From assembly GCF_027947575.1 (NCBI RefSeq), contig NZ_CP116256.1:8060001-8124000 (forward strand): DNA of 64,000 nucleotides. Direction: 5' to 3'. The translations under genes and the position numbers were made by a program. Under the pieces are notes generated by a model. It worked only from the letters and a program-made list of their open reading frames with translations, was not told the DNA's origin and searched no databases. The stretch is from Streptomyces rubrogriseus. Its GTDB lineage: Bacteria; Actinomycetota; Actinomycetes; Streptomycetales; Streptomycetaceae. Of this stretch, positions 1,445 to 14,395 are shown piece by piece; the first letter of the stretch is position 1; the number at the start of each line of letters is the position of its first letter.

Positions 1445-1894
1445 ATGTCTCTCCCCAAACCCGAAGACGTACTCGTAGCACCGAATTTCGGCATCCAGAT
1501 CGACGGTGTGATGGTCGAGTACCTCAACTCGGTCTCCAACCTGCAGATCGAGCAGGACGTCATCAGGTACCAGCAGAACCAGGGCACGACCGGCCGCAAC
1601 AACGTCACCCTGATGCCGGGCGTGGCCAAGGACGGCTCGGTCCAGGTCGAGCGCGGTATGAGCCAGTCGTCGGTGTTCACCCAGTGGATCAACGACTCCA
1701 TGGCGGGCCGGATGGCCACCGCCCGCAAGAACGCCACGATCATCGTGATGGACTACGAGGACAACCCGGTCAAGCGCTGGAACCTGCGCAACGCCTGGTG
1801 CAGCAAGGTCGTGGCGGGCACCCTGAAGGCGGGTGACACCAACGCGCTCACCGAGACCATCACCATCGTGTTCGAAGAACTGGTCGTCGAGTAA
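1445..1894 (+). CDS. cis1a: Contractile injection system inner tube protein
   Basis: 149-aa tube subunit of the T4 gp19 family (PF06841 type); hexameric rings stack inside the sheath to form the expelled tube. Diagnostic text includes NFGIQIDGV near the N-terminus, the central MPGVAKDGSVQVERGM and the C-terminal TETITIVFEELVVE. Start ATG has an AGAAGGA-type ribosome site about 10 bases upstream. It follows the sheath by 52 bases and its stop overlaps the next start (TAATG), which suggests translational coupling. A second tube-family gene lies at 6873, so this cluster, like other eCIS clusters, has two tube paralogs; which one forms the bulk tube is inferred from its position beside the sheath. 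Confidence 0.93.
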   Translation: MSLPKPEDVLVAPNFGIQIDGVMVEYLNSVSNLQIEQDVIRYQQNQGTTGRNNVTLMPGVAKDGSVQVERGMSQSSVFTQWINDSMAGRMATARKNATIIVMDYEDNPVKRWNLRNAWCSKVVAGTLKAGDTNALTETITIVFEELVVE

Positions 1895-2427
1895 TGCGCC
1901 GTAGCACCGCCAAGGCACCCGCCGCGGCACCCCAGTCCGCGGCGGCGGGAGCGGACTTCCCCCGTTCGGCTCCCGCCGCCGCGCCCACGGAGGCGCCGGC
2001 CGGTTCTCCGGCCGGCCCTCCCGCCGGGCCCCCCGTCGACACCGCCCCGAGGCAGCAGATGCAGACCGAGTTCCCCTTCGAGCTGCCGCGCGGGTACGTC
2101 GACGAGTCGGGCACGGTGCACCGGGACGGTGTGATGCGCCTGTCGACGGCGCGGGACGAGCTGATCCCGCTGCGCGACGTGCGGGTGCAGGAGAACCCGG
2201 CGTACCTGTCGGTGGTGCTGCTCGGCCGGGTCATCACCCGGCTGGGCACGCTGGCGATGGTGCACGACGGCGTCGTGGAGAACATGTTCGCCTCCGACCT
2301 GGCGTTCCTCCAGGACTTCTACCGCCAGATCAACGCGGAGGGGCACACCCGCGCGGCGGTGGAGTGCCCGCACTGCTCGGAGCCCTTCGAGGTGGAACTC
2401 GGCGGGAGCCGCCTGGGGGAATCGTGA
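1894..2427 (+). CDS. CIS-associated protein with C-terminal CPHC motif, unknown function
   Basis: 177 aa, start coupled to the tube gene stop. The first ~50 residues are low-complexity Ala/Pro. A compact domain follows (about residues 53-150, from QTEFPFELPRGYVDESGTV through FLQDFYRQINAEG), then a single C-x2-C pair in VECPHCSEPFEV. Size and position (between tube and later baseplate genes, next to a tiny protein) resemble tail assembly chaperones or baseplate-hub assembly proteins of contractile phages, but I cannot assign a function. The lone C-x2-C could bind zinc only as a dimer or with partner ligands. It overlaps the next gene by GTGA. Confidence 0.8.
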   Translation: MRRSTAKAPAAAPQSAAAGADFPRSAPAAAPTEAPAGSPAGPPAGPPVDTAPRQQMQTEFPFELPRGYVDESGTVHRDGVMRLSTARDELIPLRDVRVQENPAYLSVVLLGRVITRLGTLAMVHDGVVENMFASDLAFLQDFYRQINAEGHTRAAVECPHCSEPFEVELGGSRLGES

Positions 2428-2585: not shown

Positions 2586-5500
2586 GTGGGACTCCTGGAC
2601 CGGCTGCGGGGCCGTCGCGACGGCGGCGAGGGAAACGGGAACGGGGGCGGGACCGCGGCTTCGGCGGCGGCCCCGCCCCCGGAGACGGGTCCGCCCGCGG
2701 ACACCGGCTCGCGTCCGGACCCGGGCGCCGGCGGACCTGCGGCATCCGCGCCCGGACCCGCGCCCGTGGCCGTCGCGGCCTGGACGGGCCTGCCGCCGAT
2801 CCAGCGCGCCACGGGAGCGGACCGCACGGGGTGGCGGACGCCGCTTTCGGCGGCCGCCTTCCGACGTGGCAGGACCCGTCGTTCACGCGGGCGCCGTCCC
2901 CGGGGGTACTCAACCCGGCGGCCGGCGACAGCCTGCTGTCCGGCGCCTTCGACGCGTCGGCCCGGCAGACCTCGTCCACCCCGCTGGCCCGCCCGGCCGG
3001 CCCGCCGCCGGTGCAGCGGATGCCCGTCGCGCCGCTGCGCGCGATACCGGCGGACGCACCGGCCCCGGCCACCGCACCGACCGCGCCCACGGGCTCCGCC
3101 CCGAGGGCGCGCGGTGGTGCGTCGAGTACGCCGGGCAGGTCGGCCGCGTCGGGTCCGGCGCCGACGGCGGCCACGTCGTCGACCGCGCCCACGGCCGCGC
3201 CGGTCCAGCGGGCGCGTTCGGCCGGGACGGCCTCGTCCGCCGTGCCCGCGAACCCACCTGCCCCGGCCTCCCGCGGGGTCCGGGTGACCCCGGTGCCTGC
3301 GCCGCCCGCCGCCCCGCGCCCGCGCCAGTCGCTCACCAAGGCCCCGTCCGGATCGCCCGCCGTGCAGCGCCGGGCGTTGCCGGCGAGCCGCCCGACCACG
3401 GGAGCCGCTCCGGCATCCTCCGGCACGGCGTCGTCCGGCGCTGCGTCGTCCGGCACGGGGCCCTCGTCGGCGGACGCCGACCGAGCGGACCCCGGCTGGG
3501 CACCGGCGGGGAGCGCCTCCCCGGCCCACGGCTCGGCACCGGCGGGGAGCACCTCCCCGGCCCAGGGTTCCGTCACCCCGGCGCCCGCACCGACCGGGGC
3601 ACCCGTCCAGCGGACGGTGTCCGCTCCCGGGACCACACCGGCCCCCGGCGCGTCCGGCGACGGGACGGCACCGGCGGCCCCGGTACGGCGGCCCGACGGC
3701 GGCACCCCTTCGGCCCCGGCACCGGCGAACAGCGGCTCCGTGTCCGGCACACCGCCCGTCCAGCGCACCGCCGCACGACCGTCCGGCCCCACGCCAACCG
3801 GCGCCCCGGCCGGACCCGGCACCGCACAGCCCGGCGGCAGCAACCCCGCGACCACCGCACCGAGCGACAGCACCACACCCGTCCAGCGGGCCACCACACG
3901 ACCGACCGGCAACAGCAACACCTCGACCCCCGCACCGGCCGACAGCGGCACACCGCCCGTCCGGCGCGCCGCCGCACGACCGTCCAGTGGCGGCAACCCG
4001 CCCACCCCCGCGCCGAGTCACGGCGGCTCCGCGCCCGGCACACCGCCCGTCCAGCGCGCCACCGCACGACCGTCCGGCAGCGGCAACCCGTCGGCCTCCG
4101 CACCGGCGAACAGCGGCTCCGCGTCCGGCACACCGCCCGTCCAACGGACCACCGCACGACCGTCCAGCGACGTCGCCCCGTCGACGCCCGCTCCGGCGAA
4201 CAGCGGCTCCGCGTCCGGCACACCGCCGGTCCAGCGCACCGCCGTACGACCGTCCGGCCCCACGCCAACCGACGCCCCGGCCGGACGCGGCACCGCACAG
4301 CCCGGCGGCAGCAACCCCGCGGCCACCGCACCGAGCGACAGCCCCACACCGGTCCAGCGGGCCACCGCACGGCCGTCCGCCAGCGGCAACCTCTCGACCC
4401 CCGCACCGGCCGACAGCGGCACCGCGCCCGGCACGCCCCCGGTCCAGCGCGCCGCCACCCGACCGTCCGGCTCCCCGGCACAGCCCGCCAGCGGCGATCC
4501 GGCAGCCACCACTCCGGGCGACGGCTCCACGTCCACCGCCCCGCCCGCCCAACGGGCCACCGCACGACCGTCCGACGGCAACGACCCGTCGACGCCCGCC
4601 CCGGCGAACAGCGGCTCCGCAGCCGGTACCCCGCCGGTACAGCGCGCCGCCGCACGGCCGTCCGGCCGCACGCCGACCGACGCCGCGGGCAACGGCCCCA
4701 CGTCCGCCGCCCCGGCACGGCGGCCCGCCGTACGCCCCGGCGACAGCCCGGCGCCGGCACCGGCGGGCAGCGGCGCCACGGCCCCGACGCCGCCGGTGCA
4801 GCGTGCCGTACGCCGCACCGACGGCGGCACGACTCCCCGGCGGGCGACGCCGCACCCGCCACCCGGCGAGCCGCCGCGCAGCCCGACCGCCCCGCGTCCG
4901 CCGGTGACCGCCGGACCGGTTCGCCGGAGACCGCGCCCGGCGCCCCGGTGCAACGGGCCGCGGCACAGCCCGAGCCGGGGTCCGACGCCCATGTGGGGAC
5001 GGTCCCGCCCACGCCCGGCACCACCTCGGACGCGGCGCGGGGGCAGGCCCCGGTGCGCCCGGCGGAGTCCCGGTCCGCCGCCACCCCGGCAGCCGGCAGC
5101 GGCACCCCGCCCACCGGCGGCCCCGCGGCACCGTCGCCCTCGCCGTCGCGGTCGGTGGGAGCCACCCCCGTCGGCCCCCGGTCCAGCGAGCCGCGGCACC
5201 GGCCGCCGAGTCCGGCGGCGACAAGGCGGCGCCGTCCGGCGCACGCCCCACCGGCACCGGCGACGCCACCGGAGGCGGGCGCCCCTCGGCGACCGCTCCC
5301 GGCGTTCCCGCCACCCCGGCTACGGCTAGCCGCCCGTCCAGCGCCGGGCGTCGGCCGCCCAGCCGACACCGCCCGCGCGGCCGTCCTCGGCACAACCGGG
5401 CGGCGCACCGCTACCGCCGGTCCAGCGGGCGTCGGAGCCGCGCACGGCCGACCCGATCGCGCCGCCCTCCGCCACCCCGGCGGCACCGGCGGAGCCGTCC

Positions 5501-6783
5501 GCACCGACCCACCCGAGCCCCGCCGCCACGGTCACCGCACCCGCCTCGCCCGCCATGTCCGCGACCCGTACCGCGCCCACGCCCGCCGTACCGCCGTCCC
5601 GGCCGGAGACCGGCAGGACGACAGCCCCGGCGACCCCCGTGCAGCGCAGCGCGGCCGGGCGGCGTCCGGGGCTCGGCGCGCCCACCTCTTCCGGCCCGGT
5701 CGGCGCCGTACGTCCGACCGTGACGCCGGCACCGACGGCCGCACCGACGGCGGCACCGGCACCGGCACCGACCGCCCCGGCCGCACCGGCCGGGGCGCCC
5801 GCGCGTCGTTCTCCGCTCGGCGCGCCCCTCTCCGCGCCCCCGCCCGACACCACGTCGCTCACCACGCGGTCCCCGGCTCCCGCGCCCGCCACGACCGGGG
5901 GTCACGTGCCCCCGCCCGTCCAGCGGGCCACCGCCACGGCCTCCGCGCCCGCGGCACCACCCTTCACGACCACGACCACGGCCGCCGCCACACCGCCCTT
6001 CACGGCCCTCACTGCGCCCGCCACACCCACCGCACCGCCCTTCGCCGCCCTGGCCACGCCCGCCGTACCGCCCTTCGCCGCCCTGGCCACGCCCGCCGTA
6101 CCGCCCTTCGCGGCACCCGCGACGTCGACGGCCCCGGCGGCGCCGCACCTCACGCCTCCGCCGCTGCCCGGTGGCGGCGGGGCGACGCCTCCCGTCGTCC
6201 AGCGGGTGCCCGCCAAGGCCGTACCCCTGCGCAAGCCCGGGTCCCCGGCGGGGCCACCGGAGCCCCGCTCCCGGTGGCCCCGCTCACGCCGCCCCGGCCG
6301 TCGGCGGCCCGGCCGGAGATGCCCGTCGCCACGCAGGCGGTGCCCGCGGACACCACGCCGGACGCCCTCGCCCCGGCCGGCACCGCGTCCGCCGACCTGC
6401 CGCCGGTCCAGCGGTTCTCCTTCCGCCGTTCCCACCGTGCCGCACGCACCACCGCCGCCGCGCTGGCCTCCGTCACGGCCGCCACCGTGGCGGACAACCT
6501 GTCCCGGCTGCACACCCCGTCGTCCCGGCCCGGCCCGGACGAACCGCCGCCCCCGTACAGCGACCCCCCGCCCCCGTACGAGGCGGGCGCGGGCTCACCG
6601 CCCCCCGACGGTCCCCCGCCCGCGTACACGGCGGTCCCCGAGGGCGGGTTCGACCCGCGTGAACTCACCGACTTCCAGCTCGACGAACTGGTGCACCGGA
6701 TCATCGGCCGCGTCACCCGTCTCGTCCGCACCGAACTGCGTATGGACCGCGAACGGATCGGCAGACTGCGCGACCCGCGCTGA
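2586..6783 (+). CDS. Giant Pro/Ala/Thr-rich PVQR-repeat CIS protein, interrupted by five apparent -1 frameshifts
   Basis: If five single missing bases are restored the gene encodes about 1,400 aa. The GTG start at 2586 follows GGAGGG by 7 bases and opens VGLLDRLRGRR. The middle is a disordered Pro/Ala/Thr/Ser array holding about 24 copies of a (P/A/V)(V/I/A)(Q/R)R motif, mostly TPPVQR followed by (T/A)(A/T)xRPSG, spaced roughly 35-45 residues in the best-ordered part. The C-terminus has PPPPYSDPPPPYEAG, PPPAYT, and then a compact helical end, FDPRELTDFQLDELVHRIIG and RLVRTELRMDRERIGRLRD, stop at 6783. Coding frame moves near 2830, 4836, 5177, 5330 and 6240, each time by one lost base in a G/C-rich stretch, and each move restores PVQR text. 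So this is one gene with base-call errors or real mutations. Function unknown; scaffold, tape-measure-like or docking roles are inference. Confidence 0.75.
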
Positions 6784-6872: not shown

Positions 6873-7295
6873 ATGACCCGTAAGGACCCGGGCTCTTCCA
6901 TCTGGTTCAGCCTCGCCATCGACGGCGAGAGCCTCGGCTACTTCAACGGGTGCGAGGGCCTGTCGACCCAGGTGGAGGTGGAACAGCGCCAGGAGGGCGG
7001 CAACAACGGCTTCGTCTGGCAACTGCCCACCCGCGTCACCTACTCCAACATCCGGCTGACCCGCCCCCTCACCCCGGACACGGCGAAGGTCGCCAAGTGG
7101 ATCTCGTCCGTGCAGACCGGCATCCAGCGGCCCACCGCACAGATCTCCGCCCTGCGCGCGGACGGGTCGCTGGTCGTCCGCTGGGGGCTGATCGACGTCC
7201 TGCCCGTCAGCTGGCAGGGCCCCAGCCTCGACCCCGGCAGCGCGTCCGTGGCCAACGAGGTCCTGGAGATCGCCCACCACGGGTTCACGGACTGA
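6873..7295 (+). CDS. cis1b: Second CIS tube-family protein
   Basis: 140 aa, T4 gp19 tube family. It starts MTRKDPGSSIWFSLAIDGES and contains FNGCEGLSTQVEVEQRQEGG and RLTRPLTPDTAKVAKWI, the conserved tube hairpin and helix. It is only distantly like the tube at 1445. In eCIS and R-type particles the second, divergent tube protein usually forms the tube-initiation ring on the baseplate hub, and its position just before the LysM and spike genes fits that. A ribosome site AAGAAAGG precedes the ATG by about 10 bases. The 89 bases between the giant PVQR gene and this start hold no other gene. Confidence 0.9.
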   Translation: MTRKDPGSSIWFSLAIDGESLGYFNGCEGLSTQVEVEQRQEGGNNGFVWQLPTRVTYSNIRLTRPLTPDTAKVAKWISSVQTGIQRPTAQISALRADGSLVVRWGLIDVLPVSWQGPSLDPGSASVANEVLEIAHHGFTD

Positions 7296-7323: not shown

Positions 7324-8046
7324 ATGGCCACAAGCAGCAAGGGCGCCGGCAAGAGCCTCGTACGCGCCAACCTCGCCATCCACGAGCCGCCCACCGGCAA
7401 GTCCACCTCGCCCGGTGGGCTGATCAAGCGGTTCCCGTTCGAGTTCAACCCGGCGCAGCTCTCGATCAGTCAGCGCTCCCAGTGGAAGTCGACCCCGACG
7501 GCGGCCGTGCGGAAGGCCGCGAAGCCGCAGTTCATGGGGGCCGAGCCGCGGGAGATGACCCTGGAGATCTTCCTGGACTCCTCGATGAAGCCCGGCGGCA
7601 ACACCGTCATGAAGAAGGTCGAGTCGCTGCTGATCTGCTGCGAGGTCACCGCCAAGAGCCTGGCCGCCAAGCAGCCGTCGCCACCCTGGGTGATCTTCGA
7701 GTGGGGCTCGTTCTCCACGGCCCGGTTCAACGCCTACGTCGCGTCCATCGAGACCCAGTACACGCTCTTCGGCACCGCCGGTGTCCCCATCCGCGCGACC
7801 TGCCAGATGGCCCTGGTGGAGATTCCCGGCCCGACCCCGAGGCAGAACCCGACCTCCGGCGCCCTCACCGCCCAGCGCGTGCACCGGGTCGTCGCGGGGG
7901 ACTCGCTCCAGTCGCTGGCCTGGAGCGAGTACGGCAGCGCCAACGCGTGGCGGGTGATCGCCGAGGCCAACGGCATCGACGACCCGTCCCGCCTGCCGAC
8001 CGGTACCGAACTCATCCTGCCGGCCACCGAGGAGGTGCCTCACTGA
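7324..8046 (+). CDS. cis7: CIS baseplate protein with LysM domain
   Basis: 240 aa. The first ~175 residues are the CIS tube-binding/baseplate domain (LIKRFPFEFNPAQLSISQRS is characteristic), and the last ~50 are a LysM-like module, VHRVVAGDSLQSLAWSEYG to LPTGTELILPA. The family corresponds to T4 gp53/54-like connectors that link the spike hub with tube and wedges. In eCIS the LysM part is structural and not evidence of peptidoglycan binding. Ribosome site AGAGAGGAAGA is followed by ATG; the stop overlaps the next start (TGATG). Confidence 0.9.
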   Translation: MATSSKGAGKSLVRANLAIHEPPTGKSTSPGGLIKRFPFEFNPAQLSISQRSQWKSTPTAAVRKAAKPQFMGAEPREMTLEIFLDSSMKPGGNTVMKKVESLLICCEVTAKSLAAKQPSPPWVIFEWGSFSTARFNAYVASIETQYTLFGTAGVPIRATCQMALVEIPGPTPRQNPTSGALTAQRVHRVVAGDSLQSLAWSEYGSANAWRVIAEANGIDDPSRLPTGTELILPATEEVPH

Positions 8047-9980
8047 TGGTGCGTCCCGCCTTCTCCAGCGTCGTCGAGGTGAAGATCGGTGGCGCCCCGC
8101 TGTCCGACACCGTCGCCCCGATGCTCACCGACGGATGGGTCGACCAGGGCGTCAACGTGCCCGCGGCGTTCCGGCTCACCTTCCGCGACCCCCACCACAA
8201 GCTCCTCGGCGACCTGAACGTGCAGTTCGGCACCAAGGTCGTCATCACGCCGATCGCCGACGGCGAGGGCAAGGGCAACCCCCTGCTGACCGGTGAGGTC
8301 ACCGGCCTGGAGGCCGACTACGACGGCACCGGCAGCTTCACCGTCATCCGCGGCTACGACTACGGGCACCGGCTGATGCGCCAGCGCCGGGTGGCCGCGT
8401 ACCGCAACCAGAAGGCCTCCGACATCGCCCGCAAGCTCGTGGCGATGGACGGCGTCTCCATCGGCCGCATCCAGGCGACCAAGGGCACCTACGCGTTCAT
8501 CTCCCAGTCCAACGTCACCGACTGGGACTTCCTCGCCCGGCTCGCCGACGAGAACAAGATGATCATGTACCTGGACTCCAAGGGGAAGTTCCGGTTCGTC
8601 ACGCCGAAACCGTCGGCCGGCGCGCCCTCGCCGAACACCGACGGCGACCAGAGCACCTTCGTCCTCCAGGCCGAGCACGACATCCTGCGGCTGCGGGCCG
8701 CCGTCACCGCCGCCGACCAGATCGGCAAGGTCGAGTCGCGCGGCTGGAACGTCACCACCAAGAAGAAGATCACCGAGACCGCGCCGGCCACCACCGACCC
8801 CGGCATCAACATCAAGTGGACGCCCGGCACGGCCGCCGGCAAGTTCAAGCCCGGCAAACTCGTCGAGACCGCCAACCCCTACGACAAGCAGGACGAGGTC
8901 CAGAACGCCGCGAAGGCCCTCGCCTCCGACGTCACCGCCTCCTTCGCCGAGCTGGAGGTCGCCGCCAAGGGCCACCCCGACCTGCGGCCCGGCGTCCCCG
9001 TCGCGCTCGCCGACGTCGGCACCCCCTTCGAGGGCAAGTACACCGTCACCTCGGTACGCCACCACTTCGGCGACGGCGTCCCCTACGAGTCCTGGATCAC
9101 GGTCAGCGGACGCCAGTGGCGTTCCCTGTACGGGCTCGCCTCGGGCGGCGGCGGGGGCTCGGACCCGGCGAGCGCCGCCCGGCTGCCCAGCGTCGCCAAC
9201 GCCATCGTCACCGACGTGCAGGACCCCCTCAAGCAGGGCAGGGTCAAGTTGCAGTTCCCGTGGCTGGACGACACCTACATAAGCGACTGGACGCGCAGCG
9301 TCCAGATGGGCGGCGTGGCGGGCGGCGGCATCTTCCCCATGGACGTCGGCGACGAGGTCCTGGTCGCCTTCGACCGGGGGGCGCTGGACCACCCGTTCGT
9401 CATCGGCGGCCTCTACAACGGCCGGGACGTGCCGACCAAGAGCGACGTGCCGCTGCACGACGGCCTGAAGAAGAAGGCCGTGCGGCACACCCTGTCCGAC
9501 CGCCAGGGCAACCGGGTCGACCTGCTCAGCCAGCGCACCGGCGGCCGCAAGCAGGGCGTGCGGATCGCCAGCGGCAACGACAAGCTGACCATCAACCTCG
9601 ACCGCACCAAGACCGAGATCACCGTCGACAGCAAGGGCTCCGTCAGCATCACCGGCAGCCGCTCGGTGTCGGTGGACGCGGGCACCGACCTGTCGCTGAG
9701 CGCCAGGCGCTCCCTGACCATCAAGAGCGGCGGTCCCCTCAGCATCCAGGGCGGCAGCATGATCAACATGCGCAGCGGGGGCGTGGTCGGAGTCAACGCG
9801 GGAGGCGCCCTGAACCTGGGGGCGGGCGGCGCCGCGACGCTGAGCGCCGGGGCCGCGACGACCATCTCCGGCACCGTCAACGTGCAGATCAACTCCGTCA
9901 TGACGAGGGTCATCGGCGCGACCTTCGAGGTCAAGACCCCCATCTTCAAGGTCGCGACGATCCCCGTGCCGGGCCTGTGA
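8046..9980 (+). CDS. cis8: VgrG-like spike / baseplate hub protein
   Basis: 644 aa. The N-terminal two thirds follow the gp27-like hub fold (VGrG/phage late control D type: DIARKLVAMDGVSIG, WDFLARLADENKMIMYLDSK). A gp5-like OB fold follows from about residue 380 (ANAIVTDVQDPLKQGRVKLQ, MDVGDEVLVAF, HPFVIGGLYNG). The end is a repetitive beta-helix needle rich in Gly/Ala/Ser (SISGTVNVQI-like repeats) finishing at PVPGL. It forms the trimeric spike that plugs the tube and pierces membranes. There is no C-terminal enzyme domain, so it is not an evolved effector VgrG. It is coupled to the LysM gene by stop/start overlap. Confidence 0.93.
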   Translation: MVRPAFSSVVEVKIGGAPLSDTVAPMLTDGWVDQGVNVPAAFRLTFRDPHHKLLGDLNVQFGTKVVITPIADGEGKGNPLLTGEVTGLEADYDGTGSFTVIRGYDYGHRLMRQRRVAAYRNQKASDIARKLVAMDGVSIGRIQATKGTYAFISQSNVTDWDFLARLADENKMIMYLDSKGKFRFVTPKPSAGAPSPNTDGDQSTFVLQAEHDILRLRAAVTAADQIGKVESRGWNVTTKKKITETAPATTDPGINIKWTPGTAAGKFKPGKLVETANPYDKQDEVQNAAKALASDVTASFAELEVAAKGHPDLRPGVPVALADVGTPFEGKYTVTSVRHHFGDGVPYESWITVSGRQWRSLYGLASGGGGGSDPASAARLPSVANAIVTDVQDPLKQGRVKLQFPWLDDTYISDWTRSVQMGGVAGGGIFPMDVGDEVLVAFDRGALDHPFVIGGLYNGRDVPTKSDVPLHDGLKKKAVRHTLSDRQGNRVDLLSQRTGGRKQGVRIASGNDKLTINLDRTKTEITVDSKGSVSITGSRSVSVDAGTDLSLSARRSLTIKSGGPLSIQGGSMINMRSGGVVGVNAGGALNLGAGGAATLSAGAATTISGTVNVQINSVMTRVIGATFEVKTPIFKVATIPVPGL

Positions 9981-10014: not shown

Positions 10015-10467
10015 ATGGCCGAACAGTTCGTCGGCTCCGGCTGGTCGTTCCCGCTGCGGATCGGGCCCACCGGCGGGATCGCCCTCGTCAGCGGCGAGCA
10101 GGAGGTGGAGGAGGCCATGCGGCTCATCCTCGCCACCGCGCCCGGAGAGCGGCCGATGCGCCCCGAGTTCGGCTGCGCCATCCACGACCTCGTCTTCGCC
10201 CCCGTCAACGAGCAGACGGCGGGCCGCATCCAGCACGAGGTCTATGTCACCCTGGACCGCTGGGAACCACGCATCGAGGTCCACGACGTCGACGTCACCA
10301 CCGGTGAGGAGCAGAACGTCCTCTTCATCGACGTCCGTTACTCGATCCGCGGCACCAACAACCCGCGCAGCCTCGTGTTCCCGTTCTACGTCATCCCCTC
10401 CCACGACGAGCCCGACCTCCCCGACGCTCCGGCCGGTCTCCCGGGCTCTCCCGAAAGCGACCGCTGA
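10015..10467 (+). CDS. cis9: Baseplate wedge protein, gp25 family
   Basis: 150 aa with the gp25/GPW lysozyme-like wedge signature: GSGWSFPLRIGPTGGIALV, EAMRLILATAPGERPMRPEFG and the TVxxW-type DRWEPRIEV strand. It nucleates the sheath at the baseplate in contractile tails. A GAGGAAGG ribosome site precedes the ATG. It ends coupled to the baseplate J gene (TGATG). About 20 extra Pro/Glu residues form the tail after FPFYVIP. No PAAR-type tip gene lies between it and the spike, where many clusters have one. Confidence 0.94.
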   Translation: MAEQFVGSGWSFPLRIGPTGGIALVSGEQEVEEAMRLILATAPGERPMRPEFGCAIHDLVFAPVNEQTAGRIQHEVYVTLDRWEPRIEVHDVDVTTGEEQNVLFIDVRYSIRGTNNPRSLVFPFYVIPSHDEPDLPDAPAGLPGSPESDR

Positions 10468-12425
10468 TGCCCCTGCCCTCTCCCAACCTCGACGACCGCC
10501 GCTTCCAGCAGTTCGTCGACGATGCCAAGCGCTACATCCAGCAGCGTGCGCCGGAGTGGACCGACCACAACGTCTCGGACCCCGGTGTCACGCTCGTCGA
10601 GACGGTGGCCCACATGGCCGACCAGATCGTCTACCGGCTCAACCGGGTCCCGGACAAGAACCACCTTGCCTTCCTGGACCTGGTCGGCATCACGCTCTTC
10701 CCGCCGTCGGCCGCGCGCACGGACGTCACCTTCTGGCTCTCCGCGCCGCAGGAGGACGCGATCCTCGTCCCGGTCGGCACCGAGGTCGCCACCCTGCGCA
10801 CCGAACGCGACGAGGCCGTCGTGTTCGCCACCGAGCAGGACCTGCGCATCGTCCCGTGCACGATGAGCCGCCTGGTGACCCAGGTCAGCGGCGAGGCCGT
10901 CAGCGACCGCACCACGGACCTCGCCGAGAGCAAGGACGTGCTGTGCTTCGCCGAGGCACCGGGCCCCGGCGACTGCATGCTCATCGGCCTCAGCGCCGCC
11001 GTCCCGGACTGCGCGCTCGCCCTCGAACTCGACAGCCGCGTCGACGGCGTCGGTGTCGACCCCCGCCAGCCGCCGCTGGTGTGGGAGGCCTGGACCGAGG
11101 ACGGCTGGCAGTCCTGCGAGGTCGACCGCGACGGCACCGGCGGTCTCAACCGGCCCGGCGACGTCGTGCTGCACATACCCGGCGGTCACGTCCTGTCCCG
11201 CAACGGCGGCCACGAGGCCGGCTGGATCCGCTGCCGGGTCACCGAACCGCTCAGCGGCCAGCCCTTCTACACCACCTCGCCGACCATCCGTTCCGCCGAG
11301 GCCTACACGATCGGCGGCACCACCGGCTCCGTCCACGCCGAGACCATCCTCGACGAGCCCCTCGGCGAGTCCACCGGCCTGCCCGGCCAGCGGCTGCGGC
11401 TCGAGCACGCCCCCGTCGTCGCCGGCGAACCGTCCGTCCTGCTCCAGACCGCCGCCGACGACGGCTGGCAGGACTGGCGGGTGGTGCCGCACTTCTCCGG
11501 CTCCCACCCGGACGACCACCACATCACCGTCGACGCCACCACCGGCGAGATCGCCTTCGGCCCCGCCGTCCGCGAGGCCGACGGCACCCTGCGCCAGTAC
11601 GGCGCCGTCCCGCCCAAGGGCGCCGTCATCCGCGCCCGCCGCTACCGCACCGGCGGGGGCCGGGCGGGCAACGTGGCCCGCGGCGCCGTACAGGTGCTGC
11701 GCACCTCCATCCCGTACGTCTCCGAGGTCGTCAACCGCGAGGCCGCGCTCGGCGGCGTCGACGGCGAGACCATCGAGGAGGCCAAGCTGCGGGCGCCCAT
11801 CACCCTGCGCGCCCAGGAACGCGCCGTCACGCTGCGCGACTACGAGGAACTCGCCCGCCGCGCCGCCCCCGAGACCGCCCGCATCACCTGCCTGGAGGGC
11901 GCGGAGAACGAGTACGGCGCCCACGCCGTCCGCGTCCTCGTCGTCCCCCAGGCCGTCCCGGACCCCGGCGGGCGCCTGCGCTTCGAGCAACTCGTCCCCG
12001 GTGACGCCCTGCTGAACCGCATCACCCGCCACCTCGACGAACGCCGACTGATCGGCACCCGGCTCGCCGTCGGCCCGCCCTACTACCAGGGCGTCACCGT
12101 CGTCGCCACCGTCCACGCCTTCCGCGACGTCGACGCCGACCGCGTGCGCCGGCAGACTCACGACGCCCTCTACCGCCACCTCGACCCGCTCACCGGCGGC
12201 TCCGACGGCAAGGGCTGGCCGTTCGGACGTCCCGTGCAGACCGGTGAGCTGTTCGCCGTCCTCCAGCGCGTGCCCGGCGTCGAACTCGTCGACGAGGTCG
12301 TCCTGCACCCGGCCGACCCCCTCACCGGCAAGCGCGGCGACCCCACCAACCGCATCGACCTCGACGCACCCGCCCTGGTCTTCTCCTACGACCACCGGGT
12401 CCGCGTGATCGGGGACAGCGCGTGA
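10467..12425 (+). CDS. cis11: Baseplate J-like wedge protein
   Basis: 652 aa, gp6/baseplate J family. It opens with the usual eCIS start, MPLPSPNLDDRRFQQFVDDA and ERRAPEWTDHNVSDPGVTLVE-like text (TDHNVSDPGVTL seen). The middle has GEIAFGPAVREADGTLRQYG and PPKGAVIRARRYRTGGG, and the C-terminal part has LRAQERAVTLRDYEELARRA, the conserved J-domain helix. With the next protein it builds the wedges that ring the hub and transmit the firing signal. Length is normal for actinobacterial Cis11. Overlaps at both ends indicate one translationally coupled operon. Confidence 0.95.
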   Translation: MPLPSPNLDDRRFQQFVDDAKRYIQQRAPEWTDHNVSDPGVTLVETVAHMADQIVYRLNRVPDKNHLAFLDLVGITLFPPSAARTDVTFWLSAPQEDAILVPVGTEVATLRTERDEAVVFATEQDLRIVPCTMSRLVTQVSGEAVSDRTTDLAESKDVLCFAEAPGPGDCMLIGLSAAVPDCALALELDSRVDGVGVDPRQPPLVWEAWTEDGWQSCEVDRDGTGGLNRPGDVVLHIPGGHVLSRNGGHEAGWIRCRVTEPLSGQPFYTTSPTIRSAEAYTIGGTTGSVHAETILDEPLGESTGLPGQRLRLEHAPVVAGEPSVLLQTAADDGWQDWRVVPHFSGSHPDDHHITVDATTGEIAFGPAVREADGTLRQYGAVPPKGAVIRARRYRTGGGRAGNVARGAVQVLRTSIPYVSEVVNREAALGGVDGETIEEAKLRAPITLRAQERAVTLRDYEELARRAAPETARITCLEGAENEYGAHAVRVLVVPQAVPDPGGRLRFEQLVPGDALLNRITRHLDERRLIGTRLAVGPPYYQGVTVVATVHAFRDVDADRVRRQTHDALYRHLDPLTGGSDGKGWPFGRPVQTGELFAVLQRVPGVELVDEVVLHPADPLTGKRGDPTNRIDLDAPALVFSYDHRVRVIGDSA

Positions 12426-12994
12426 ATCCCGCCTCGCAACGGGGCTCCGTCGACGGTCTCGGCTCGTCGCTGCCCATCGCGTCGATGCTGCCGGCCGTCT
12501 TCGCCGACGACGACCTCGCGCTGCGCTTCGTCGCCGGGCTCGACGACGTCCTCGCACCCATCCTGAACGTCCTGGACTGCCTGGACACCTACTTCGACCC
12601 CGCCCTCACCCCGGCGGACTTCGCGCAGTGGCTCGGCACCTGGGTCGGCGCGGAGACCGACGGCACCGAGGCCGAGCCGATGCTGCGCGCCGCCGTCGCC
12701 GCCGCCGCCCGGCTGCACCGCGTACGCGGCACGCTGCAGGGCCTGTCCGAGACCGTCCGGCTCGCCTTCGGTGTCGCGCCGGAGATCACCGAGAGCGGCG
12801 GCGCCGCCTGGAACGCCCGGCCGCTCGGCCCGTTCCCCGGCCGCCCCCGCCCGCAGCTGCACGTCGCCCTCCGGCTGCCCGAACCCAGGCCCGTCGACGT
12901 CCACCGGCTGGACGCCCTCGTCGCCGCCGCCCGCCCCGCCCACATGCCCTACACGGTCGAAGTGACCGCCTCCGAAAGGACCCCGGAGAGATGA
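12422..12994 (+). CDS. cis12: Phage tail protein I-like baseplate protein
   Basis: 190 aa from a GTG overlapping the preceding TGA (GTGA). It has the gpI-type fold text SSLPIASMLPAVFADDDLA, LDCLDTYFDPALTPADFAQWL and RVRGTLQGLSETVRLAFGV. The partner of baseplate J in wedge assembly (T4 gp7-like role). It ends in ATGA overlapping the next gene, which fixes that gene's start at 12991. It is shorter than many Cis12 proteins and has no tail-fibre-like extension; no fibre gene is visible in the window. Confidence 0.9.
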   Translation: MNPASQRGSVDGLGSSLPIASMLPAVFADDDLALRFVAGLDDVLAPILNVLDCLDTYFDPALTPADFAQWLGTWVGAETDGTEAEPMLRAAVAAAARLHRVRGTLQGLSETVRLAFGVAPEITESGGAAWNARPLGPFPGRPRPQLHVALRLPEPRPVDVHRLDALVAAARPAHMPYTVEVTASERTPER

Positions 12995-14395
12995 CCACGC
13001 AGAACTGCGCCGAGTGCGGAACCCCCGCGGAACCGGGCCAGTCCTTCTGCGACGCGTGCGGCGCCGTACTCAGCTGGGACCAGGCCGGTGCCGCCCGCAC
13101 CGCGCGGCCCGCCGCCGCCACGTCCGACCAGCGCCCCGGCTTCGACGCCTTCGCGGACGCGGGCGTGCCCCCGCCCGCACCGGCCGCCCGGCCGCGGCAC
13201 CCGCCGCCGAACCGGCCGGCGCCATCGGGGAGAACCCGACGCTGCCCCAGCCGCGCCGTCCGGCCGGAGACGCCGGCGCCCCGGCCGGAGACGCCGCGGA
13301 CAGCACCGGGGACACGCCCGGCGCGGGGAACGCCCCGGGCGCCGCCGCCCACGGCGCGGGAGCTGCCGCGGGCCCGGACGCCGCTCCGGGAGCCGCCGCC
13401 CGCCCGGCGCCCGGCACCGACGAGACCGCCCCGACCGCCCCGGTGCCCTCCGCCGCCGCCTCCGCGCCCGCCCCGAACGCGCTCACCGACACCATGTCCG
13501 ACCGGGCCCGCTCGCTCCTCGTCCCGGTCGCCGACCCCGAGGCTCCCGCCCCGGCGGCGCCCCCGCCGTCGCGCCCGTGCTGCCCGGCCGCCCCGACGCG
13601 GACCGGCCGCAGGTCCGCGCCCCCGGCCACCAGCCGGACATCGCCAACGGCCCGCCCTGCCCGTGGTGCTCCACCCCCAACCGCCCCGACCGCCACTACT
13701 GCGCCCGCTGCGCCATGCCCCTGGTCGCGAGCGGCGACCAGGCCTCCCTGCGGGCCCCCTGGTGGCGTCGGCTCTTCGGCGGACGGCGTCAGGAGACCCC
13801 GTGGGCCGGCGACCGTCCGCGCCTGCGCCGCGTCTTCGACCGCATCGGCACCTGGATCACCGTCGCCGTCGTGGCCACCCTGGCCGTCCTCGGCTTCATG
13901 TACATCCCCGACGGCGTCCAGAACACCCGCGACCACTTCGCCAAGCGCGCCCCCGTCTCCCCGGACGGCATCAAGGCCTCGCGCTCCTTCCCCGGCCACA
14001 ATCCCGAGCTGCTCATCGACAAGCTCAGCAACACCTGGTGGGGGCCGGGCATCACGGAGTCCGGCCAGGGCCAGTGGGTCGAGGCGAGCTTCACCGAGCC
14101 GACCCGGCTGCTCGACGTGATCATCACCCCCGGTGTCTCCACCCGCGCCGACAAGCTGCGGGAGTCGGCCCTGCCGCACCGGGTCAAGGCGACGATCACC
14201 ATGAAGGACGGGTCGGTCAAGACCCGCGACCTCACCCTGGACCAGGGCGCCGGCGGCCAGCGACGCCCGTTCCGCGTCGGCGAGGTCACCAAGGTCCGCT
14301 TCACCATCGAGTCCGCCCACGCGGCGTCCGCCAAGAAGCAGGTGGCCATCTCCGAGATCGAGTTCTTCGGCCCCTCCAGCGCCAACCCCTCCTGA
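12991..14395 (+). CDS. cisA: CisA-like membrane protein with zinc ribbons and glycan-binding-type C-terminus (two apparent -1 frameshifts)
   Basis: About 468 aa once two missing bases (near 13190 and in the C run 13560-13564) are restored. Order: N-terminal zinc ribbon (CAECGTP...CDACG); a long Ala/Pro linker; a second ribbon (CPWCSTP...CARC); a basic stretch WWRRLFGGRR; one membrane helix ITVAVVATLAVLGFMYI; then a discoidin/NADase-type glycan-binding-like domain (LLIDKLSNTWWGPGITESG to ISEIEFFGP). Positive charges before the helix predict N-inside topology, with the last domain outside. As the last CIS gene it matches the position of CisA, the S. coelicolor membrane protein reported to be needed for membrane-associated CIS firing and cell death. 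The ortholog call rests on position and architecture recalled from the literature. Confidence 0.75.

Follow-up and report, generated by a model that had tools for sequence, protein, structure and literature searches.

A long gene of a Streptomyces contractile injection system (CIS) lies where phage tails encode their tape measure, and its product carries a dense array of VQR motifs between two conserved ends. The gene (2586-6783, + strand; here called the slot gene) is in a 64,000-nucleotide stretch of Streptomyces rubrogriseus DNA, the window of this study. The original prediction saw no ordinary tape-measure gene in the cluster, and three papers, including PMC12237407, likewise call one absent from Streptomyces CIS, despite strikingly uniform particles of 268 nm with 60 tube layers (PMC12237407). 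We name the slot gene as a candidate for the missing gene. At a probability of slightly under one half, we read its product as a conserved occupant of the tape-measure slot, a disordered scaffold anchored at the hub and bearing multivalent VQR docking sites. The eCIS_core (DUF4157) domain would thereby gain both a structural relative and a possible motif for its recognition.

Gene order, frames and architecture

All features listed below are on the forward strand. The window opens in the 3′ part of the sheath gene (1-1392; PF04984, E 7.4e-32 over 169-1392), which begins upstream (full ORF, L112:14788-16392). Next come tube protein 1 (1445-1894; gp19-like, Cis1a position; PF06841, E 6.1e-35), a Mu gp41-like tail-assembly chaperone (1894-2427; phrog_508, E 0.0027) and a small DUF6760 protein (2424-2582; PF20546, E 1.1e-10). 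Each of the 11 aligned chaperone homologues hits phrog_508 (E <= 0.1, the lowest being 2.1e-8) and one matches PF23746 Gp41_Mu (E 0.0011); a search of the chaperone against solved structures gave no meaningful match. Beyond the slot gene lie tube protein 2, the tube initiator (6873-7295; Cis1b/SlpT2 position; PF06841, E 9.8e-34), a CIS_tube and LysM hub protein (7324-8046; Cis7 position; PF19266, E 1.4e-20), a VgrG-like spike (8043-9980; Cis8 position; PF04717, E 8.6e-17), a gp25 baseplate wedge (10015-10467; PF04965, E 1.2e-26), Baseplate J (10467-12425; PF04865, E 1.5e-12) and a Tail_P2_I baseplate protein (12422-12994; PF09684, E 2.9e-10). A CisA-like protein with an F5/8 type C-like end (13088-14395) was assigned from its position and a PF25302 match (E 1.4e-5, 25.7 bits) below the cut-off of 27.

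In the order sheath-tube1-chaperone-DUF6760-slot-tube2-LysM-spike-gp25-J-I, the slot gene belongs to the CIS and sits directly 3′ of the chaperone and DUF6760 genes and 5′ of the tube initiator. Phage tails have their tape-measure gene in this place, flanked by the tail-assembly chaperone on one side and by hub/baseplate genes on the other. Mu gp42 has this position, as does Afp14 in Afp. Phage and tailocin tape measures, like the slot gene, follow the chaperone directly, precede the hub genes, are very long and occur once per tail cluster. The intact slot orthologs of the closest relatives, at 1,280-1,433 aa, are the largest ORFs of the region; the next largest CIS-region frames have 982 aa (opposite strand), 695 aa and 652 aa.

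A single chain of ~1,400 aa had been proposed, but the assembled gene does not encode one: its 4,198 nt are indivisible by three, and five frame changes interrupt it, whereas the CIS genes on either side are open. Piecewise comparison with four intact orthologs resolved six blocks, in frame 0 (2586 to ~2810), 2 (~2830 to ~4810), 1 (~4840 to ~5170), 0 (~5180 to ~5300), 2 (~5330 to ~6210) and 1 (~6230 to 6783). tblastn with whole orthologs gave one long gapped single-frame match (39-55% identity) that did not resolve them. The frame changes probably arise from assembly errors in this stretch of 81.5% GC. A contig ends between the chaperone and tube 2 genes in 26 of 80 fetched relatives, and this tendency to break assemblies may explain why the gene was overlooked. 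Slot proteins were annotated 'hypothetical protein' in the sources shown, and once 'Syndecan 1'.

An alignment of 19 orthologs defines a conserved N-terminal part (2586-2960, with a frame change inside), in which MGLLDRLRGRR is followed by a W..LPPIQR..GF...LPTWQDPSF block; other orthologs begin MGFLDRLRGRR or MAWRDRLRRR. A Pro/Ala-rich body (2796-6414, traced in ortholog-guided frames across the frame changes) holds the motifs and includes a motif-bearing 90-bp tandem repeat of 3.4 copies (3946-4255). The gene ends in a C-terminal helix, DELxxRLxxPLxRLLRxELRxDRERxGRLRDxR (6652-6780; profile A1, E 6.0e-23), which an AlphaFold model of an eCIS_core-bearing relative predicts as one 30-residue helix; searching it against solved structures gave no meaningful match. 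Pfam scans of four intact orthologs and two window pieces found no family, including the eCIS_core domain (PF13699), and for the intact orthologs this also means no toxin or enzymatic domain of the kind expected of a CIS effector. Composition (14-24% Pro) and low-confidence model segments suggest that the protein is intrinsically disordered. The orthologs show neither the helical or coiled-coil body of a phage tape measure nor a clear membrane segment, 1 of 47 having a borderline hydrophobic stretch.

Absence from related clusters would have told against a CIS role; instead, counting with a widened C-helix regex, we found a C-helix ORF in the slot at 71 of the 72 loci where the upstream DNA sufficed. 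Elsewhere in the phylum, 3 of 16 usable chaperone-anchored regions lack the protein. In other families, we collected 15 regions around C-helix matches: in 12 the slot is preceded by the chaperone and followed by tube 2, one is cut by the contig start and two have no CIS genes.

The VQR motif array

The original prediction of about 24 PVQR-type motifs holds when only the frame that agrees with the orthologs is counted: there are 22 [VI]QR (1, 13, 1, 1, 5 and 1 in the six blocks) and two PVRR, with three further PAQR/PARR variants. The (A/T)xRPS context described for them is also present. PPPxY near the end of the protein was likewise reported, and it is there in the window, but only 23 of the 47 orthologs examined have it, so it is no general feature.

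The motif is far above expectation. Nine intact orthologs of the closest clade have 18-23 motifs against 0.2-0.4 in residue shuffles (for L034, 21 against a mean of 0.31 and a maximum of 2 in 200 shuffles). The closest slot orthologs have ~15 [VIL]QR per 1,000 aa, ~23-fold over an own-genome background of 0.63 (33 motifs in 142 ORFs, 52,266 aa, from ten 20-kb stretches). Two of the genome's three instances of a spaced double PVQR codon pattern are in the slot gene.

Multivalency, as first proposed, is borne out by the array's retention as a dense set in the three tube-2 groups that we defined inside the genus and also in several further families. The suggestion that motif number sets length fails: across 47 group A ORFs the count runs from 1 to 31 and stop-to-stop length from 692 to 1487 aa (L091, among the low extremes, appears broken), and motif count as a ruler for 60 tube layers was rejected on the range within one group. 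Slot ORFs of group B measure 614-836 aa from stop to stop. Fixed motif positions under selection were also rejected. In unmasked alignments V/Q/R identity exceeds background (0.85-0.96 vs 0.31-0.59 in A1 and B, 0.59-0.73 vs 0.08-0.28 in A2). Once the motifs are masked ahead of aligning, however, a clear excess remains in the closest clade alone (0.69-0.75 vs 0.33-0.53); the three remaining groups show a small excess, none or a reversal, with V and R conservation at the motif columns of group C falling below background. We therefore claim a kept density, not kept positions.

Proteins with an eCIS_core domain

A link between VQR and DUF4157 proteins, suggested when the array was first noted, is now quantitative. 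In 120 DUF4157 proteins [VIL]QR occurs 291 times against 50.1 expected from shuffles (5.8-fold), whereas permuted control motifs reach 0.77-1.54x. At 20 loci for which the eCIS_core profile was the sole search criterion there are 41 motifs against 6.2, with at least one in 15 of the 20. Both ends of the slot protein recur as well: at E < 1e-3 the C-helix HMM finds 28 of the 120 and the N-block HMM 8, and neither finds any of 240 reversed or shuffled controls. The eCIS_core proteins (in the available part of PMC8213781) are thus like the slot protein in the motif and, for a subset, in N-block and C-helix; they differ in the domain itself.

We called eCIS_core by Pfam scans, since a HExxH regex missed weak domains; 6 of 23 proteins scanned overall have it. 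By N-block, C-helix and gene slot, the slot protein belongs to a family that includes members with the domain: L212 and L202 share C-helix and slot, and P0014 and P0036 were included by the helix and not by gene place. The N-block HMM reaches only the 8 of 120 above. Among 18 other-family proteins with the same place and helix, eCIS_core lies inside 2 and is missing from 16, so the in-cis form is the minority. In other genomes the domain is outside the slot protein, most often encoded by a small gene close to the sheath.

These small partners mostly carry the motif. Outside family f69, 12 of 13 have 2-5 VQR, and the window strain's counterpart of Sle2 has 2. In f69, VQR numbers 0-2 in each of four slot proteins and is missing from 5 of 5 partners. 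A correlated loss of VQR in slot protein and partner was considered and dropped: this one clade drives it, and elsewhere rho is 0.14 (n = 11).

Readings of the slot protein

As a scaffold of Streptomyces-type CIS, the long disordered protein would be tethered through its C-terminal helix to the hub (tube initiator, LysM protein, spike), the body would thread the tube during assembly and may control length, and the basic, often aromatic N-terminus would be an assembly or loading tag. The VQR array may dock the same CIS partner that receives the eCIS_core adaptor proteins, and in Streptomyces eCIS_core would be a separate, small Sle2-type protein acting in trans. Phage tape measures span ~1.5 Å per residue. 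A slot protein of 1,356 aa over 60 layers of 38.5 Å (rise from PMC10066040) amounts to 1.70 Å per residue, which counts for the scaffold because it is near that value. The particle lengths available from the literature consulted are those of S. coelicolor and S. lividans.

Two known systems bear on this. Tme of S. davawensis (BN159_7576), in the available text of PMC11126660, is like the slot protein in being large, mostly disordered, encoded just 5′ of baseplate genes and linked to eCIS_core, but it has DUF4157, tape-measure-like and endonuclease parts, whereas the slot protein matches no Pfam domain. VQR is missing from L207, a Tme-like frame of 2,386 aa. The S. lividans cluster of Sle1 and Sle2 (PMC13277306) is by gene order of the window's type. 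Sle2, a small DUF4157 protein, potentially interacts with the tube initiator SlpT2; Sle1, unlike the slot protein, is a coiled-coil effector whose gene lies on the opposite strand. Particles of the double deletion have no apparent structural defect (PMC13277306).

Several observations count against the scaffold. Its Pro content and want of a membrane segment are unlike helical phage tape measures, and its length varies widely in one group. The tube lumen looked mostly empty (~85%) in a sco4256-4258 mutant (PMC10066040), where the slot gene should be present. Among proteins of unknown function detected by mass spectrometry, the available part of PMC10020575 names sco4242, sco4256 and sco4251 and not the slot product. 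Masked conservation, the single clade behind the co-loss, the 3 of 16 regions and the 16 of 18 proteins weigh the same way. A wider reading is doubtful: that [VIL]QR is a CIS docking motif beyond actinobacteria with one structural reader, and that the missing tape measure is a disordered VQR scaffold of common origin with eCIS_core proteins, its core left to a separate adaptor.

We consider it unlikely that the protein is cargo, a disordered chain that is packed into the tube, ejected from it and irrelevant to length, with VQR as part of a loading signal to which the basic/aromatic N-terminus belongs. The N-termini MGFLDRLRGRR, MAWRDRLRRR and MRWWPFGRR (P0014) do fit the eCIS signal as given in the available part of PMC11297309 (heavy or aromatic residues early, positive, disordered), and VQR is common to DUF4157 proteins, which are often cargo. 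Yet the four intact orthologs have no Pfam domain and the gene keeps its place in the structural operon, whereas described cargo genes (sle1, sco4256-4258) lie beyond the sheath gene and, of 94 CIS-bearing strains, just 47 have the sco4256 type (PMC10066040).

A multivalent factor that gathers tube, chaperone and eCIS_core adaptor off the particle, and that would be missing from completed particles, is rather improbable. It would suit a gene directly after those of the chaperone and DUF6760, a product unnamed in the mass spectrometry and the loss of most lumen density in the effector mutant. The conserved C-helix and the place beside hub genes instead suggest a hub partner, and Tme, an eCIS_core protein, co-eluted with the spike complex (available part of PMC11126660).

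Cleavage after Arg at VQR sites, giving pieces of some tens of residues, is very improbable. A trypsin-like enzyme could plausibly cut at V-Q-R before A/T/S, and the tape measures of some phages are processed. But no protease of this kind turned up when 20 proteins of the CIS region were scanned with Pfam, we know of no Arg specificity for the metallopeptidase-like (HExxH) eCIS_core, and VQR is present in short adaptors too. Neutral expansion of a GC-rich low-complexity gene, for which the partly tandem array and the turnover of motif positions between species speak, is likewise very improbable given 15- to 120-fold excess over shuffles in intact orthologs, enrichment of VQR and not of control motifs in divergent groups and a different protein family, and a single motif across the 3,239 aa that 20 other low-complexity ORFs from this genome add up to.

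By gene counting, the slot orthologs would be SCO4249, SLIV_17140 and vnz_28900. We take PhoP to be SCO4230. SCO4249 is labelled PhoP in PMC13033682, probably a slip there.

Motif content and reading frame of the gene

The gene at 2586–6783 (forward strand; the window is 8060001–8124000 of an 8.41-Mb single-contig genome, GC 73%) was originally predicted to encode one chain of about 1400 residues carrying about 24 PVQR-type motifs. Motifs were counted solely in the frame agreeing with intact orthologs, and the number holds: 22 [VI]QR (1, 13, 1, 1, 5 and 1 in successive blocks read in frames 0, 2, 1, 0, 2 and 1) and 2 PVRR. The single chain does not hold, as there are five frame changes within 2586–6783, unlike the adjoining contractile injection system (CIS) genes, which are open frames. 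Assembly error appears likelier than a dead gene, because every frame block agrees highly with the orthologs, the stretch has 81.5% GC, and 26 of the 80 relatives retrieved with tube 2 have a contig end in the interval separating the chaperone gene from that of tube 2. By title, 78 of the 80 are Streptomyces, one is Kitasatospora and one an 'Actinobacteria bacterium'. Many species have intact orthologs.

Nine intact orthologs from the closest clade have 18–23 [VIL]QR per protein versus 0.2–0.4 expected from residue shuffles. The background in the source genome is 33 motifs among 142 ORFs (52,266 aa), and 20 other low-complexity ORFs there have one motif in 3,239 aa; a codon pattern for two spaced PVQR motifs is found three times in the whole genome, twice within this gene. 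With the motif masked before alignment, a clear identity excess remains in the closest clade only. Motif density is conserved, which does not imply that motif positions are. Three slot proteins resembling group B (P0006, P0008, P0013) have recurring phrases beside VQR: PLVGxRPL, xGLGAPL and GIAQRMPDGSVxF.

The orthologs are 14–24% Pro, and most have a basic stretch in the first 10–15 residues. Lys is nearly absent (1–4 per protein in ten of 47 genus orthologs) and Arg common, which could reflect GC bias or avoidance of pupylation. No clear membrane segment was found in the 47 orthologs (one is borderline), and a Pfam scan of four intact Streptomyces slot proteins matched no family.

The tape-measure slot and its occupants

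The operon order is sheath, tube 1, 177-aa protein, DUF6760, the gene under study, tube 2, CIS_tube/LysM, VgrG-like spike, gp25, Baseplate J, Tail_P2_I and CisA-like, with a Pvc16_N protein and an AAA ATPase 5′ of it. Homologues of the 177-aa protein (window 1894–2427) match phrog_508 in 11 of 11 aligned cases (best 2.1e-8) and Pfam Mu gp41 in one of 11, and we assign it as the tail-assembly chaperone. It and its homologues end in a conserved CPxC piece resembling half a zinc ribbon. Long-tailed phages carry their tape-measure gene after that of the chaperone; since the chaperone likewise precedes our gene, the latter occupies the tape-measure slot by position.

The original prediction implied presence in related clusters, and in the genus and its neighbours this holds with one exception: tube 2 gave 128 loci, of which 56 did not extend far enough upstream, and 71 of the 72 usable ones have a slot ORF with the conserved terminal helix (C-helix). 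The loci were grouped by tube 2 identity, and stop-to-stop ORFs of at least 500 aa with few unread bases were counted. Group A (47 of 54 qualifying) spans 692–1487 aa (median 1193) with 1–31 VQR, group B (8 of 8) 614–836 aa with 7–13, and group C (9 of 9) 978–1182 aa with 5–14. A C-helix profile matches 43 of 394 genomes of the class, some of the weak matches being due to chance; of 15 regions around such matches outside the genus, 12 have the chaperone 5′ and tube 2 3′ of the slot, one is cut off by the contig start and two are without CIS genes.

A chaperone-anchored census across the phylum recovered 24 genomes out of 396. Among 19 regions fetched, 13 have a slot ORF of 626–1465 aa and three are cut by contig ends; a long slot protein is missing in the other three (L258, L262 and L264, from Actinomycetota genomes G750, G220 and G740). 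These three clusters do have chaperone, tubes and baseplate, and are natural comparisons for length and loading. Five of the 13 ORFs (L260, L263, L265, L266, L267) lie between tube 2 and LysM rather than before tube 2, with VQR at most weakly enriched and another C-terminal helix, roughly L..LE.R....LERRG.

Link to eCIS_core proteins

The presence of VQR in DUF4157 (eCIS_core) proteins was also part of the original prediction, and it is borne out. Twenty loci found by the eCIS_core profile have 41 [VIL]QR versus 6.2 expected (none in five). Part of an eCIS_core slot protein was also used as a query; among the best 8,000 candidates this gave 159 significant matches, of which the 120 listed have 291 versus 50.1 expected, a count open to some bias because the query part holds one VQR; control motifs ([VIL]RQ, QK, NR, ER, QE, AR) in these 120 stand at 0.77–1.54 of expectation. 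The motif occurs at least once in 99 of the 120 and at least three times in 54. It is carried by the Mesorhizobium (P0056) and Candidatus Limnocylindrales (P0036) sequences among the matches listed; the archaeal P0054 and Roseomonas P0097 sequences have none. The C-terminal helical domain sought across eCIS loci was recovered in part: the Streptomyces C-helix profile matches 28 of the 120 listed (E < 1e-3), leaving the rest unmatched, and a C-helix regex falls at the very end of 25. The conserved N-terminal block profile matches 8 of the 120, and neither profile matched any of 240 reversed or shuffled controls. The gene is tied to the eCIS_core family and has a short motif in common with it. 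Small eCIS_core proteins such as L278 have C-terminal tails repeating VQR followed by Glu-rich runs, whereas the slot protein has VQRA/T.

Twenty-three slot proteins found beyond the genus were scanned against Pfam (eCIS_core cut-off 22 bits). The domain lies inside two of the 18 that keep the position and the helix (L212, 82.5 bits; L202, 53.3) and inside four of the five located between tube 2 and LysM (25.7–40.2 bits). An AlphaFold model of L212 residues 440–751 (24 sequences, mean pLDDT 71.2, pTM 0.45) resolves eCIS_core with confidence; a linker of low confidence connects it to a single, separate C-terminal helix of 30 residues. No second eCIS_core gene was found beside the cluster in the four in-cis genomes searched (G188, G429, G269, G237). 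Among 21 genomes searched, G188 and G429 are in-cis cases, and 16 have eCIS_core in a short open frame (207–316 aa), 15 of these on the same contig as the sheath and, by coordinates, within about 9 kb. The eCIS_core gene is equally near in a longer frame in G356, on another contig in G512, in longer or cut frames in G555, and was not found in G807. With the core in cis in some genomes and in trans in others, the two proteins probably work together.

VQR occurs 0–2 times in each of four slot proteins from family f69, with V-x-R-S/A mildly enriched instead, and is absent from 5 of 5 small eCIS_core partners; outside f69, 12 of 13 partners have 2–5 and one has 1. The slot–partner correlation (rho 0.66, n = 15) is lost once f69 is left out (rho 0.14, n = 11), so this co-loss is one evolutionary event.

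Particle length and proposed docking

Published reports describe Streptomyces particles as all 268 nm, with 61 sheath layers, 60 tube layers and no tape-measure gene (PMC12237407); as lacking a typical tape measure, with a rise of 38.5 Å, and with a mostly empty lumen in a sco4256–4258 mutant (PMC10066040); as encoded by an SLP cluster without a tape-measure gene (PMC10286715); and as 295 nm versus about 120 nm in other eCIS, with proteins identified by mass spectrometry of particles (PMC10020575). Our search of open-access article texts (VQR motif with eCIS; proline-rich with Streptomyces CIS; inferred locus names) returned no description of the slot protein or motif. The gene is a real, conserved component at the position expected of the missing tape measure; it is new to the literature searched and a candidate for that place.

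Taking L037, a close relative, to stand in for the S. coelicolor protein, 1,356 aa over 60 layers of 38.5 Å gives 1.70 Å per residue. This falls in the phage tape-measure range and is suggestive of length control, though no test of it. Phage rulers are helical whereas the slot chain is Pro-rich and probably disordered, so length-setting by it would need a different physical basis.

Building on the observed slot position, conservation, motif enrichment and family link, we propose that, while the particle assembles, the chain would lie inside the tube or alongside it, with the hub holding its C-helix, and that VQR would dock a partner common to slot protein and adaptor. The tube initiator is the first candidate partner, given the potential Sle2–SlpT2 interaction reported in PMC13277306, and the chaperone the second. 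The same paper reports that a Sle1/Sle2 double mutant makes particles without apparent defect; the Tme protein is covered in PMC11126660, and DUF4157 and the loading signal in PMC11297309 and PMC8213781. Upstream of the operon studied here, on the other strand, a 982-aa protein (L112:11508–14456) carrying IQR takes the place of Sle1, beside an eCIS_core protein (255-aa stop-to-stop frame, also on the other strand) carrying VQR. The 982-aa protein begins LASLQAAAGNRAVASAIQR, which resembles the start of the adjoining eCIS_core protein, LALQSAAGNAAVQR.
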